NCBI GenBank assembly: GCA_021234155.1
Contig: JAJEKV010000001.1
Coordinates: 33,060,177 to 33,124,176 of the forward strand
Direction: 5' to 3'
Origin: Isoetes taiwanensis
Taxonomy: Eukaryota > Streptophyta > Lycopodiopsida > Isoetales > Isoetaceae
Length of the DNA stretch: 64,000 nt
Position 1 is the stretch's first letter, and each line of letters starts with the position of its first letter. The translations under genes and the position numbers were made by a program. The notes beneath the pieces were generated by a model that saw only the letters and a program-made list of their open reading frames with translations, was not told the origin of the DNA and made no database searches. Positions 13,691 to 42,849 of this stretch are shown here, one piece after another.

Positions 13691-16545
13691 GGGACTGCTA
13701 AACTTTCTGGATTTGGTTGTCCTGCTTGCAGACTTGGTAAGCAAGTTCAAGCTTTTATCCTTTGCAAAACCGAACATAGGAGCTATAAACTTTTGGAAGC
13801 TTGTTTAATTAGGACATATGTTATATACTGTTGCATCGGTAGCAGGCAACAGGTACTTCTTAGTGCTCATTGATGATTTCAGTAGAGTTTACCTAGGCAT
13901 ACGCTTGAAGAAACTTAGGTCCAGCATTTTCAGTTCAACTTTTCATGCCGGAAGTTGAAAAAGTTGCTGTACCATCAAAGGCCGATCCGTACAGATAATG
14001 CTGGAGGTTCTCTCAGATCAGTTTCAACAGGATTTTTCTTGTCATAGGGCATTCATAGACAATTGCTTGGTTCCTTATGTTCATCCGCAGAATGGTGTGG
14101 CAGAGGCGAAATGTCATTATAACATGGATCTTGCAGGAGTATGATTAAGCACGACAGTTGTCACCTAGTTTTTGGGCAGTATAATCAAAACAGCAGTCTA
14201 TATTAAATCCCAATAAACACAAAATCTTACGAACCTCAAAGACTCCGTTTGAAGCTATCTGGAGTTCGACCAGATGTCTCATTTCAGAACTTTTTAGGGT
14301 AATACTTGCCTATACGACCTTACCCATGAAGATTTAAACAAAATTTAAGCTAAACTGATCGATCAGTCAAGTAGATTTTTCGTGAACCATCTATAATACT
14401 CGAAGACGCCGGAGATGCTGCGGGGAATCGGTTACCGGCAAGGGGTTTCAACTAAATTATTGCAATTTATAGAAGAGACCCGTTTATTCTTCTGTTTTTA
14501 TGGAGCCACCTAATTCGAGTATGACAAATGTCTTCAAGATTTATTAGATGTTAGATGTTGCTGCGCACCTCTGCTAGAATTGATCCTAAGCCTATTATTA
14601 CTCCTCCAGTATGTTCCTCCGCTGCGCTGAATTTGAGATTCGTAGCAGGTTCCATTGATTCTTTGTACTCTATCCACTTGATCCGCTTTTACCTTTTGTA
14701 CAGCGGCTCTTTGCTCTTCACTTGAGCCTTTACCTTCTTCCGCTACCTCTTAAAGTTTCACGATTCTCCTTATCCGTTAGTCATATGCCTCTTTTGATCC
14801 AATTGATTACCTTCAGCCTGCTATGTCTCCATCAGAAACTCTCAGCATGCGATTCCACTTCAAAATCAAAACACAGGTTGCGCGCTTTTCACCAACCAGC
14901 CCAAGGAGATCAAAAAGACTAGCTGGTATACACTTGAGGGTTTCATGTAACTTTGCACTAGCAATACGCAGTTCTTATCATATTGATCCTCTCCGCGCCG
15001 CTCCAAGCAGCCAAGCATCCTCATTGGGCACAAGCAGCTGCAAAGAGCGAAAGTGATATATTGCACAAACAGCAAGCATGAAGTCCCAGTTCTGAAGCCT
15101 TTGAATACTAATATTGTTTGGGCGCCAAGGTGGATTTACAAGACAAAATTTCCTTTCGGATGGTACGTTATCCAAATATAAGAGCACGGCTCGTGCTAGG
15201 CTTTACTCAACTTAGGAGGTTTCTGATTATAATGAGGTGGTACTTCCCCTATTTGTAGGTTGAATTCTATACGTGCAGTCTTGGCCTTGGCGGCATCAAA
15301 AGCGTGGTCTGTCTATCAGCTAGATTTTAAATCAGCTTTTCTTAATGGAGATCTGAAGAATATTTACATGGAACAACCACCTGGTTTTTGAAGATCCGTG
15401 GGTTCCTGATTATCTTTGCAAGCTAAAAGAGTGCATATGGGCTCAAGCAGGCTCCTGAATCTGTTGGCATCCCGCAAGATCCAAGTCTTGGTTATCAAGA
15501 TCGAGGCTGACTATAATGTTTACTATCAGCTTAAGGGCTCAAATTTCCATTATACTTCTATGTTGATGATATGGTACTCACAGGAGATGCTACTGATTTG
15601 ATTTCTAGCACCAAGGATTCCCACAAAGATGCAATTTTGGGAACACAGACTTGAGGTTGCATACATTATATTTGGGTTTACAAGTTTGGCTGCTCCTTGG
15701 CATTTTCTCTTAACATAAATATTAATGAGGTATTACACAGGTTTCATATAGCAGATTGTAAGCCCTCAGTTATACCTCATGATTCAGGTAGAAGAACGGC
15801 TCTTAATTCAGCGCTGAGAGCTGATGCTGCAGGCAACTAGTTGGAGCTCTTCTTTTTGTTACTGTACCAGTCCTGATATGATCTACATTGTAGGGTTTCT
15901 TACCGCGTTTCATACATCATCCTAAGTCCTCTCACTGGCATCACAGCTAAGAAGGTTCTTTACACATGGGAACTGCTACAGAAGGTGTCTCATTACACTT
16001 GTCTCACCGGATAATGTAAAAGCTTCTTATCTATGCAATTTATGATCATGCCACAAGCGTGTCGAGAAAATAGAAGATCTCGCTGGTGTTTGCATATTTC
16101 GCTTCTTTGCTGTAGTAGTAATCCAGTTACATGGGGATCAAAAAAGAAACCAGCGGCACGATTTCAGTACCACTGACGAACTTAAACGTACTACAGCAGT
16201 GCAGAAATGCGCTTTGGTTTTGTTCATTTATATGAAGATTTAGGGGCCAAGATACACCAGCCTCTATCTCTGTTAGGCAAATATGATTTTAATTTCTCAT
16301 ATAAAGATATAAATGGCATCATCTGACTAAACATCTAGATATCAAAGAGTAATGTTTCATTACTTAAAGCAGCGATGCTGGAATTATCTCTCTTTCACAT
16401 TGTTCTTCACAAGGACAGGTAGCAGATGGAGTTGACAAAAGCCTCTTGTAGGCAAGCATTTTTTAGTACTTTGTAAAACAAAATGTTTCACATTGTTTTC
16501 TTTAACTATTTTCTTTCTCCAGCGGTGTACACATCATCAGGAGGG
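13691..16545 (+). pseudogene. Degraded copia pol, second module of the nest
   Basis: Plus-strand fragments give the copia order. CRLGKQV (about 13,725-13,746) ends GAG-pre-integrase. LVLIDDFSRVY (13,860-13,893) and YVHPQNGVAEAK (14,077-14,112) are integrase core motifs. RT begins near 15,118 with WAPRWIYKTKF. It continues with VYQLDFKSAFLNGDLK and IYMEQPPGF (15,312-15,390) and an intact FYVDDMVLTGDA box at 15,556-15,591. RNase H gives TWGSKKK near 16,130 and a SSQGQVADGVDK tail at about 16,400-16,440. Multiple frame changes mean it is dead. Motif spelling differs from the first module, so this is a different copia copy rather than an internal duplication. Confidence 0.8.
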
Positions 16546-30700: not shown

Positions 30701-33700
30701 TGAACAGATATTACCTAGTTAGTTCATGGTTGATAATGAAGTTATGTTGGCATTAGAATAATATAAGCGTTTTATTTGGATTGATCCAAGCAGTTTCCTT
30801 CCTTCTGAACCTTTTTTTAAGTATTTGAAAGGAACGCATGGAATCCAACACATAAAATAGATTGATTGGTCCATTCCAGCCCATAGAAGAGGTCAACTTT
30901 TGGCATCTTTCTAAATCTTCTTACTAGAATCTGGATATACAAGGATAGATATATACAAAAAATTACCTTATATCCTATACTGGAATATTCAGCATGTTCT
31001 TGAATCCCAATTAGTTGTATTGTATTGTATCCTGCATTCTTCACATATGGAAGCACCTGCAAATTCAAAACAATGATGACCGAAGGAATGACTAATGGAC
31101 CTACTTATGGGTTAAAATATCACAAAAAAATTAGGGATTTTTTGCTTCATTTCCTATTAAGTTTTGTGGACTATATTTTCAAAAATCCTTTTAAGGTCTA
31201 ATTTAGGGAGCAGAAACTGGCAAACCTCATGAAGAGACGAAGATTTCAAAAGCGTGACAGGATTCGACGTCTTATATTTTAAACAACCTAAGGCAAAGAC
31301 ATCCCCAAGGACAAAGGGCAAAGGCAGGTTTTGCTACCTTCTCTGTAAACTCCTTAAATGTAGAAACACGGGCACCTTCTCCACTTATACCAATGTGGCA
31401 TTCGTATATACGTAGAGCTCTAGGAACGTCTGGACTTGCATTCTTCCACTGGTGCCTCTCATTCATTGGAGGGTCCCAAAACACAGCACTCATGCGCTTC
31501 CTGTCAGGATCTACACAACTTGAAAACATAAGGGAACTTTAGAATTGAGCAGCAATAACAAACACACAACTAACATAATTTTATAACACAGGAAGGTTGA
31601 ATGAGGACCAAGATGCACAAATTCAGAATCTGACAGAACTAATCAAAATTGGGTTCCATGGGCATAGCAAATTACTTATATGCATGTTAATTTGCCTGGA
31701 AAACAAGATAAGACTAAGGTTCTATACATGCACCTTGCAGTTCAATGGCTTTGCATCTCATCTAAACTATTACTAGATCAGCCATAAAAGCCCAGGCCAC
31801 AGGATTGAGGATTATTTCCAAAAAATACTAGGAACCATCCTATTAACGTCTAAAGCTATCAAAAGCACAATCTTCGAATTATGAGCTATTTGAGTAGGTT
31901 TTCAATGAGTACAATACATCTCAAAAAATCAGTCACTTCTTAAATCTGTATAGAAACTAATGACCTGTCTTTGCCGCACACACAATATATTGCTTAAGGG
32001 ATTCAAAGGGTCTTCATCCTAAAATGGACTAGCAAACTTGCATGGTGCCTTGTATTTACACTGCCCATCAATATCTACAATTGCAGTTTACATACCTGGC
32101 AATACATATGTGGCCCATGCTGGCACACGTTCCAAAGGGCCCTCCGGGGTATGCAAGTAAACTCTAACACGTCCGCCATGCGGTATTCCAGGCACATATT
32201 TCTTCTCCCATGCCTTTCGGCCCTTAATAAAATATAACCAGTAAGCTAATGGTGGTTTCTTCTTTGCAACCCTCTTGCGCCAAACAGGATCATCTATAAT
32301 GGTTAGTTCTTTTGGATTGCTACCATCATCAACAACTTCAACAGGGGGCAAGTTTGAAGTCTGCTTTCCAGCTTCAGTAGCTTTCCATTCTTCATATCGT
32401 GTCCTTGCATCAGCTGGTTCATCCATAAACTTGTCATCATTTTCCTCTTCATCTTCTAGTCTAACTAGACCACGTTGAGTACCGAAAATGGAATTGTATA
32501 GCTCTTCTGCAAAAGCAGTTGGATCTTTAATGTACTCATCCTCCCCAGGTTCCCAATAATCATCATCCATTTTTTTAAAGAGAGCTTCAACATCGACATC
32601 TTCATCACCGCGATCGTAATCCTGCAAATAATTATACTCTTGTAAAAAGTCATCCTCCTCCTCACCATCTCGGAGCTTATCCGAAACAAATATCTTCCAG
32701 TATCCATCATCATCACGACCCAAGTAACCCTCTTCGGCACAATTCTGTCTATGGACCCAGCCATTGAAATCTCCAATAAGTGCACAAAAACGTGCCCCTG
32801 AATCAATAGTGCTTCAGACAATAATGACCAATGATGCTGACATATGAGTTATGACAGTCAAAGAAAGTATATCAGACACAAAGATATGCATTCCAAATTC
32901 CAACAACAGCAGGTCATTTCCATCCACATTCCTGAATCGGTGCAGGAAATTTCGCAGTCTTGACATTATCCAGAAAAAGGAAGTATAAAAGCAGAGATTG
33001 GACAACAAAAGGTTAAAAACCTACCAGGCGCCCATTCATAGAACTTGATGCCATGTCGAGCATGTCGCTTAAGACCCATAATAGTGTACCTAAATACCAT
33101 GAGATAGAAAACCATTGCCTCTCGTAGAAAAAAAGATTCAGGGCAAATATTAATCACCAAGCATTTACTCACGCCGATGCCATATCAAGCAGGCTCCAAT
33201 CCCTCTGAACGATTGTATCCTTCAAATCTTTCATAGCTTTATACCTGGCATAAAATTTGTTTGCAGAAATGAGGACCTACTATCACAGAATAAATTCTAC
33301 ATGTGTAACATTCAGTCTATTAACCCCCTACCTTTCATTTGTATAGGATGTGAAGGATGCAGAGGAGAAGAAGATTTCTTAGAGCGAACAAGTAAAAACA
33401 ATTTACAAAGTATAAACAATCCTTATGTTATATAATTGGAATGTCCCTCGTGTAGCACTTGCTTCTAGACCATACTGATCTCAAGTTATACCCATTGAAA
33501 GATAGGGACGTGACAACCATCCATATGAAGTGAGAAGGTAATTCCCATAGTAACATTGTTATGCCCTAATTTTGCCAAAATCCCATCCCTATATAGAAAT
33601 GCTCCAAAAGCTCATAAGGCTCATTTGACATTGAAAATCTGCCGTTGCTTGTGCATGTCTCAAATCCATAGGTGCAATGCATCTGATTGTGAGTGTTGTT

Positions 33701-40606: not shown

Positions 40607-42849
40607 CTATAACATAGGTGGACTATATCCCAAGCTATTCAAGTCTATATATTGGGAGGGTTCCTGCCGATTGCGATGCATTTTTACAGCAGCCACAAAT
40701 GCTCCAAAGGTGAGAACCAAAAGAAATATAAGGAACAGAAGAACCTTTGTATGGCTGCCTCTTGTTGTGGCATTTTGCTCCCATAGTCCATCCAAAGTCA
40801 GCTCAGTGTCCCCCCCAGCAGACAAAAGAACGTTTGCAACTCCAGCCTACAATTATGATCAAATGAATAAGATGAGTCTTCTTGAGTGTTCCCAAAGATG
40901 CATTAACTTTTACCTGCATCATTCCAGACACAGACTGATATATGTGTAAAATAATTGGCTCAAAGAACAAATATGACTTCGGCTTTTTTTTGCACCATTC
41001 ACATCTTGTGCCCTCTTGAATGTCACAAACACCAATAAAACCAGGGGCAGTCTCCTCGGAAAACAGATCACATATTGGCTTATGCCAGATTCTCTCAAAA
41101 ATGTCTTTTGCAGTTGACAATGACATATTGACCTGGTAAGCACTGGCCTGTAGTTCTGTCATAACCTGGCAGCAAATATAGTCCATAAATTTTTTCTCCG
41201 ATAGCAACTGCATGGGAAATTGAATTAGTTATGACATACATACCACACCAAATGTTAGGAATTGGCCACATGCACAAGTGTGACTTATGGCATCACACAT
41301 CTTCTTGCATGGAAGTACAAGACTAAGTGCTTGAATCATATGGGGAACAAAGCCCTTTAATCCTTCTCTTGCAGATTCTTTTTTGCCTGCTATAGATGAA
41401 AGTACTGGCTGCCAATAGATCAGTATGTCAAATATGAAAGCTAGACAATAGAGGTAAGCATATGGGACTTGTCAATTTTTTTGTAAGCCACATATATATA
41501 CAACACAAAGTCAGTAGAAACATCAAACAACTGAAAAATAAGCAAAACTGTACAAAGTCTTACAAAAACGTTAACACCAAACTTACCAATATTTCATCAA
41601 TAACGTAACTAAATGCACCACAATGAGGAAGAACTTGTCCACACCAGAACTGTTGTATAGCCATTGAACATTGCAAGCATTCTGTGTATCCCACAAAAAA
41701 GAATGTAAACAAGCTGATAATATTCCCAGAATAAACTCATAAGGAATATCCATGAACATAATTGCCTGAACACAGCAAGCAGCTACGTGCAAACAGGCAT
41801 TGCATTCAACAGAGAAAAGGAGCAAAACTGCCAGATGAACAAGATATGCGTATGATGGGAGGGCTTGCTTCCTTGAACATAATTGTCATAAATACTTTGC
41901 ACTACCTCAATCCTTACCATTTTCATTAAATTTCAGTAATGCTTTTGGATCATTCTTGATCCCTTGTAAAGCACCAGGCTCCAGGGCACAGTCGACAGTT
42001 CTGTTTTTGATATTGCAATGGCTAATAAAAAGTGTATCATCTGGAATTGACACGCATTCATCTACACCACCAAATATGTTGCAGCGAGAGTTTCCAATGC
42101 CCACAAATAATTCACCAACCAGCTTCAAAGTTGCTCGTCCTGATTGGAGTGGCAGGGCAGCAGACATCTGTAATGCACGCTCAAGCTTCTCCACAGAGGA
42201 GGTGTCTGCAGCATTTCATAAGACTGTCAACATCAGCACCAGCATCAGAATCAGAAGACGTCCTAGTAGAACAGATTTGTGTCAAGCAGAAGTCATATAT
42301 AGCAGAAAAGCTTGTGAGGACGATGTGAAGTTTAGTCTCAGTAAGAGGTTTTTTTAATTGGTGAGGATTGGAGAGTATAGAATTAAATATCAGGGAGGAA
42401 AACCCCTCAACAATATACAATTAAAACTGAAGAACCTCACATGGACCGTCCACGAACCAAACAGATGTTCACATTCACAATATCAAAGCAAGGTGAAAAA
42501 TAGATCGAATATGGCTGTACACAGACACACCACAATCAAAGCATCACCGAACCTGAAGAAGGACCCATGAAACATCTGTATATAATATGCAGTGTGATAA
42601 ATTGAAATCATGCCATGCCTAATTCTGTCAGAAATTAGCTTTAAAAGATTTTTATGGACCCCTTAATGAAAAAGAACCCACCACTGACCTACGTATCCCT
42701 AGGGCTAGCAGACCTGGTTTATCCACAGCGATATGCGGAGCGAGAAAAGCATCGACGACATGTAGAGTGAGTATGCCAACAAATATAGCGAACAATAATG
42801 CGACCGGTTCAGCTCCTACGCTCAACCGGGGAAGACGAAGCTGCAACAT
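40607..42849 (-). CDS. Type I membrane protein with Frizzled/Mid1-like cysteine-rich ectodomain
   Basis: Six exons join in one frame with GT-AG borders: 42693-42849, 41918-42205, 41587-41681, 41244-41408, 40914-41207 and 40607-40846. They encode 412 residues plus stop. An in-frame TAG lies four codons before the ATG. Residues 16-32 form a hydrophobic signal peptide, probably cut after VDA34. The ectodomain has about 20 cysteines, including ECLQC-x8-C-x6-C (C150, C153, C162, C169) and LPC-x3-C-x6-C (C214, C218, C225). This spacing is like the Fz CRD (FLC-x6-C ... PC-x3-C-x6-C) and fungal Mid1/animal NALF channel subunits. A transmembrane helix spans about 368-388, followed by a short basic tail ending SLGYSPPML. 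Predicted N-glycosylation sites are at 120, 262 and 358. No frame damage is seen. The function and ligand are unknown, and the family assignment is inference from cysteine spacing. Confidence 0.85.

Follow-up and report, generated by a model that had tools for sequence, protein, structure and literature searches.

We asked whether a gene in a window of Isoetes taiwanensis DNA (the whole stretch analysed, 64,000 nucleotides) encodes a plant membrane protein whose ectodomain is related to Frizzled (Fz) type cysteine-rich domains (FZ-CRDs), and whether such a protein would stand with Frizzled or with Mid1 and FAM155 (NALF). FZ-CRDs are ligand-binding modules in Wnt receptors and channel-binding modules in FAM155 and Mid1. 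To our knowledge, plants lack a Wnt pathway.

Joining six minus-strand exons with GT-AG introns gave 412 residues followed by a stop, reproducing the length of the original prediction (Table 1). The join and its borders stood; intron 4 did not, as it measures only 36 nt in this model, below the workable size for a plant intron. We prefer an alternative that keeps the donor and takes an acceptor before 41165, giving an intron of 78 nt and a protein of 398 residues; further in-frame acceptors for this intron are present. The shorter model lacks 14 residues, two cysteines among them, and leaves the cysteine signature in exons 3 and 4 unchanged. Intron 3 (178 nt) separates the two halves of the CRD core. 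At the junction of exons 1 and 2, a single frame-keeping acceptor was seen among those inspected by eye in the three-frame translation. Translated in a frame not continuous with exon 2, the stretch directly upstream of it (42206-42262, minus strand) would give SDSDAGADVDSLM; this stretch is most likely intron. The 36-nt intron might point to a decayed or mis-spliced gene without a functional protein, but we consider this very improbable, as six exons remain open across 412 codons with GT-AG borders and the 78-nt alternative is in frame. The gene is genuine and its six-exon structure is open throughout.

Table 1. Features of the window gene (window positions) and of two Mid1-type genes elsewhere in the assembly (contig positions).
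Feature	Position	Strand	Remarks
Exon 1	42693..42849	-	start codon; signal-peptide-like hydrophobic stretch at about 42748-42849 (join, hydropathy)
Exon 2	41918..42205	-	Cys 94, 103, 116, 125 (candidate C1, C2); sequon NRT at residue 120
Exon 3	41587..41681	-	C150-x2-C153-x8-C162-x6-C169, corresponding to Fz C3-C5 plus an extra Cys
Exon 4	41244..41408	-	bulk of C5-C6 insert, then P-C214-x3-C218-x6-C225, corresponding to Fz C6-C8
Exon 5	40914..41165	-	preferred start (78-nt intron 4); candidate C9, C10 (alignment)
Exon 5, originally predicted version	40914..41207	-	implies 36-nt intron 4
Exon 6	40607..40846	-	juxtamembrane stretch, TM, short cytosolic tail, stop
CRD core, C150 to C225	41274..41679	-	intron 3 (41409-41586) inside span
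Single C-terminal transmembrane helix (predicted)	40685..40750	-	residues ~366-387 of the 412-residue model; hydropathy
Tail motif YIDL	40640..40651	-	residues 399-402; YxxPhi-like
C607 Mid1-type gene	C607:13338-14973	+	CRD exons 14372-14449, 14514-14699, 14902-14973; GT-AG borders checked; 78-kb contig
C1038 Mid1-type gene	C1038:7247119-7246031	-	CRD exons 7246366-7246289, 7246222-7246031; last exon not found; 15.8-Mb contig

Hydropathy averaged over 19-residue windows reached 1.6 or more in only two stretches, residues 6-42 and 363-391. The N-terminal stretch resembles a signal peptide and the C-terminal one would be a transmembrane helix (TM), a topology judged from hydropathy that agrees with the predicted secretory type I membrane protein. 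After the TM comes a tail of 25 residues with basic residues and the motif YIDL, a putative YxxPhi-like sorting signal. N-glycosylation sequons lie at residues 120, 262 and 358. The seven transmembrane helices of a Frizzled receptor are absent by hydropathy, which shows a lone hydrophobic segment towards the C terminus in addition to the N-terminal stretch. A search of the assembly (1.66 Gb, 1110 contigs), of a kind that can miss weak matches, turned up no second copy of the gene; all five scored candidates were the gene's own exons. By one test the host is a land plant: the NAC-domain profile PF02365 gave 62 matches at E up to 1e-10 from 119 candidates, and NAC domains are not known outside land plants and their close algal relatives.

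FZ-CRDs follow the pattern CnCnCX8CX6CnCX3CX6,7CnCnC, with pairs C1-C5, C2-C4, C3-C8, C6-C10 and C7-C9, as given in an excerpt of PMC6938638 quoting Pei and Grishin 2012. The ectodomain of the window protein has the core C150-x2-C153-x8-C162-x6-C169-x44-C214-x3-C218-x6-C225, with Pro before C214, in both splice models, and satisfies the C3-C8 core CX8CX6CnCX3CX6,7 of the FZ-CRD. The two cysteine clusters that had been described are therefore present, 44 residues apart. Fz spacing had been claimed for the second cluster and is borne out there; since the spacing equals the pattern in PMC6938638, the first cluster also fits Fz exactly.

Eighteen cysteines offer many spacings, a point in favour of convergence, under which the cysteine-rich ectodomain would be specific to plants and bear no relation to FZ-CRDs. 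However, when 18 cysteines were placed at random in 290 residues, C-x8-C-x6-C together with C-x3-C-x6-C (20-80 apart) arose in just 145 of 400,000 trials. Taking C116 as C2 leaves 36 residues between C2 and C3, as in five of the six Fz-type CRDs compared (39 in SMO), an agreement that is suggestive only, given several cysteines upstream of the core. An alignment finds candidate positions for all ten Fz cysteines, C9 and C10 included, yet the flanks give no extra score: on a local Fz profile, C1, C2, C9 and C10 brought no gain (26.0 for the core alone, 25.7 with all ten sites).

Membership in the Pfam Fz family (PF01392) failed on profile search, as the unmodified protein scored 10.7 bits (E 0.83) in the 412-residue model and 13.8 bits (E 0.091) in the 398-residue model, against a gathering cut-off of 32.1 bits. 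The IL-33 family outscored Fz on the former (E 0.22) and reached E 0.21 on the latter; this match is surely unrelated to the window protein. Likewise, a phmmer search of the PDB placed Frizzled-6 (E 0.28, at C6-C8) behind IL-33 (E 0.19), and nothing in the NCBIfam profiles matched the protein. Such non-significant matches of the unmodified sequence, with IL-33 equal or better, speak for convergence. The Fz alignment is split in two by the long C5-C6 insert. Removing this insert, a post hoc edit, raised the 398-residue model to 24.1 bits (E 5.7e-5) and the 412-residue model to 21.3 bits (E 4.1e-4), still under the gathering score; none of five shuffles matched Fz.

The local Fz profile was made of six Fz-type CRD sequences entered by hand, five of them without a full check. 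A 290-residue segment of the 412-residue model scored 16.3 bits on it, a value reached by none of 2000 full shuffles (1852 reported, maximum 9.8), none of 2000 cysteine-preserving shuffles (1947 reported, maximum 13.5) and none of 2000 cysteine-relocating shuffles (1878 reported, maximum 10.5). Residues 89-300 of the 398-residue model scored 18.7, rising to 27.3 with the C5-C6 insert cut and 25.7 with three stretches cut; in each of these three variants 0 of 3000 cysteine-preserving shuffles came as high (2973, 2999 and 2999 reported; maxima 14.3, 21.5 and 20.4, respectively). The best of 15 cuts gave 25.9; when 1000 shuffles were cut in these 15 ways too, their maximum was 15.4. Because cysteine-preserving shuffles never reach the Fz score, non-cysteine residues add to it, which argues against convergence. 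FAM155A scored 13.6 bits on the same profile.

Alignment of the window protein to the six Fz CRDs by hhalign matched the six core cysteines unaided (30% identity over 43 columns; P 0.015), with a homology probability of 2.9%. Low hhalign probabilities, this one and the 4.8% obtained with the Mid1-type genes described below, favour convergence. Set against the shuffles and the random placements, we consider convergence unlikely. Together these comparisons are good evidence, not proof, that the window protein is related to FZ-type CRDs in divergent form, a relation that appears somewhat better backed than the original prediction had claimed.

Pfam Mid1 (PF12929) returned no match to either model at E up to 10, so that membership in this family found no backing; the profile does detect FAM155A (22.1 bits, E 9.7e-5), itself under the cut-off of 28.6 bits. 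A search of the whole genome with the Mid1 profile yielded four matches from five candidates, the best of them a gene on contig C607, with a relative on C1038 also in the list. With their CRD exons joined at checked GT-AG borders, the C607 gene scored 52.7 bits (E 5e-14) and the C1038 gene 34.9 bits (E 1.2e-8), both over the Mid1 cut-off; on Pfam Fz the two matched weakly (E 0.0013 and 0.011). Longer joins made by hand, whose upstream junctions are unchecked, scored 49.7 and 32.2 bits on Pfam Mid1 and are 41% identical to each other. The C1038 gene has an intron one residue ahead of the Cys matching C4, and an intron lies at the same place in the C607 gene. Against the PDB, the C607 protein found Frizzled-4 alone, non-significantly (E 1). 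The C607 product is probably secreted, because the hand model, provisional at its start, stops soon after the CRD. A fungal contaminant would not account for the C1038 gene, because a 15.8-Mb contig is too large, an argument that covers C1038 only.

These two genes resemble the window gene in several respects. Their inter-cysteine gaps run 2-8-6-34-3-6 (C607) and 2-8-6-36-3-6 (C1038), as against 2-8-6-44-3-6 in the window protein, so that the extra cysteine (the first of C-x2-C, its partner being C3) and the 2-8-6 and 3-6 spacings are common to all three. The motif F-x-[PW]-H-x9-P-C, its Cys being C6, is likewise shared by the three plant proteins, as seen by eye and post hoc. On a profile of the C607 and C1038 proteins the window segment scored 10.6 bits, a score that cysteine-preserving shuffles reached 13 times in 3000 (2894 reported) and full shuffles twice in 3000 (2489 reported), and hhalign against the pair gave P 0.0083, though at the low probability noted above. 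Because both genes pass the Mid1 cut-off and share the spacing, the suggested Mid1/NALF layout gains indirect support, even with the PF12929 match absent; an early doubt about this layout, that the C-x2-C of FAM155A seemed too far from C3, was dropped after these genes were found.

The same likenesses would fit a plant protein of the Mid1/FAM155 branch that is anchored in the membrane and serves a cation channel or other transporter as its auxiliary or trafficking subunit. Against such a protein stand the silence of a profile that does detect FAM155A, the higher score of FZD4 (14.8) than of the window protein on the C607/C1038 profile, the hhalign comparison with FAM155A (P 0.13), and a genome search with an UNC-79 profile in which both candidates remained under the cut-off. 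We regard it as possible but rather unlikely.

Compared with known CRDs, the window protein is alike and unlike on both sides. With Mid1/FAM155 it shares the extra cysteine just before C3 and PC-x3-C-x6-C, whereas the Pro directly after C8, conserved in Mid1/FAM155 according to an excerpt of PMC7489899, is replaced by Ala226, and FAM155A itself reads C-x3-C-x8-C-x10-C-x5-C-x3-C-x6-C. With Frizzled it shares the C3-C8 spacing CX8CX6CnCX3CX6; Fz also gave the best local score and the sole relevant Pfam match. It differs in the C5-C6 gap, 44 residues as against 9-11 in five Fz/sFRP CRDs compared, in a longer C8-C9 stretch, in extra cysteines and in lacking the 7TM region, and it lies under the gathering score. 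The C-lobe of FAM155A is described as resembling the Fz-like CRD of MuSK by DALI (PMC7672056, in part). Neither the Fz nor the Mid1 curated threshold is passed by the window protein, a divergent variant that would fit either branch of the superfamily.

Further searches returned mostly chance matches. Judged by eye, the Mid1-profile matches on C1031 and C1098 appear to be chance. In a separate list of 17 matches, C607, C1038, C1059 and C1066 were examined, and those on C1059 and C1066 look like chance. The only genome candidate on the Fz profile (C1050, 18.5 bits) lies near a long open frame that by eye resembles reverse transcriptase, and we take it as a chance match; this search is uninformative on the window gene, which it missed, probably owing to the division of the core between exons. 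A Wnt profile gave two matches from three candidates; C1015:346028-346189 on the minus strand (23.4 bits, cut-off 20.3, E 0.035) is a short cysteine-rich frame that looks like chance. In viral contigs five stretches fitted a pattern and none was confirmed. The window holds 10 open frames of at least 130 residues; the seven outside the gene were scanned and gave one Pfam match, CBM48, in an exon at 32088-32813 on the minus strand (22.8 bits, cut-off 22.4), a piece that is presumably branching-enzyme-like.

In the open-licence literature we recognised no description of a plant FZ-CRD or plant Mid1 protein. A survey of 185 eukaryotic proteomes, plants included, lists animals, fungi and Cryptista as the groups with FAM155/Mid1 and admits to missing a known apusomonad homologue and possibly others (PMC12412391, in part); oomycete Mid1 homologues had been published before it (PMC5395580). 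Since the survey missed known homologues, the lack of plant members in it argues only weakly that plants have none. Pei and Grishin 2012 reportedly state in their abstract that FZ-CRD proteins occur in plants, so their mere presence there is not new. Arabidopsis MCA1 and MCA2 have, as far as we know, neither homology to Mid1 nor a CRD. These plant proteins are tied to Mid1 through partial complementation of yeast lacking MID1 CCH1 (PMC7256069, in part). Another parallel is oomycete PpMID1, a small protein with a signal peptide and Mid1 CRD only, for which the excerpted text mentions no C-terminal TM (PMC5395580). The same excerpt states that oomycete Mid1 is required for normal sporangia and zoospores and that no Cch1 was found in oomycetes. 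Because this Mid1 is needed where Cch1 was not found, Mid1-type CRDs need not serve Cch1, a point in favour of the Mid1 branch.

The reading we prefer, to which we give about an even chance, is that the window gene encodes a type I membrane glycoprotein with a divergent CRD of the Frizzled/Mid1 superfamily and a long C5-C6 insert, acting as an escort or co-receptor. Its ectodomain would fold as an FZ-CRD. Fz-like CRDs often bind small hydrophobic molecules (PMC3809587, in part), and the FAM155A CRD binds the extracellular loops of its channel (PMC7712781, in part). Likewise, either outside the cell or within the ER/Golgi lumen, the plant CRD may hold a hydrophobic ligand or a partner such as another membrane protein. 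The window protein would then serve as its membrane-anchored escort or co-receptor, with the YxxPhi-like motif of the cytosolic tail directing sorting and traffic. An escort or co-receptor appears the most likely role because there is one TM, no kinase and only a 25-residue tail bearing that motif. A role as Wnt receptor is unlikely.

A broader proposal, which we hold to be unlikely, is a land-plant family of Mid1/FAM155 type, with C607 and perhaps C1038 as apparently secreted members and the window gene as a membrane-anchored one, that would escort a calcium-permeable channel or surface receptor. If true, the module would be older than the split between plants, fungi and animals and would work in plants without Cch1/NALCN. 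Perhaps more surprising than the window protein is that a plant genome holds two genes exceeding the Mid1 cut-off. With a candidate CRD scaffold and two more Mid1-type genes in this genome, plants may use the module without the known animal and fungal pathways. A membrane-anchored plant CRD, apparently single-copy, would offer a handle on CRD roles outside Wnt signalling, and the window gene bears on whether plants own Mid1-like channel or receptor escorts.
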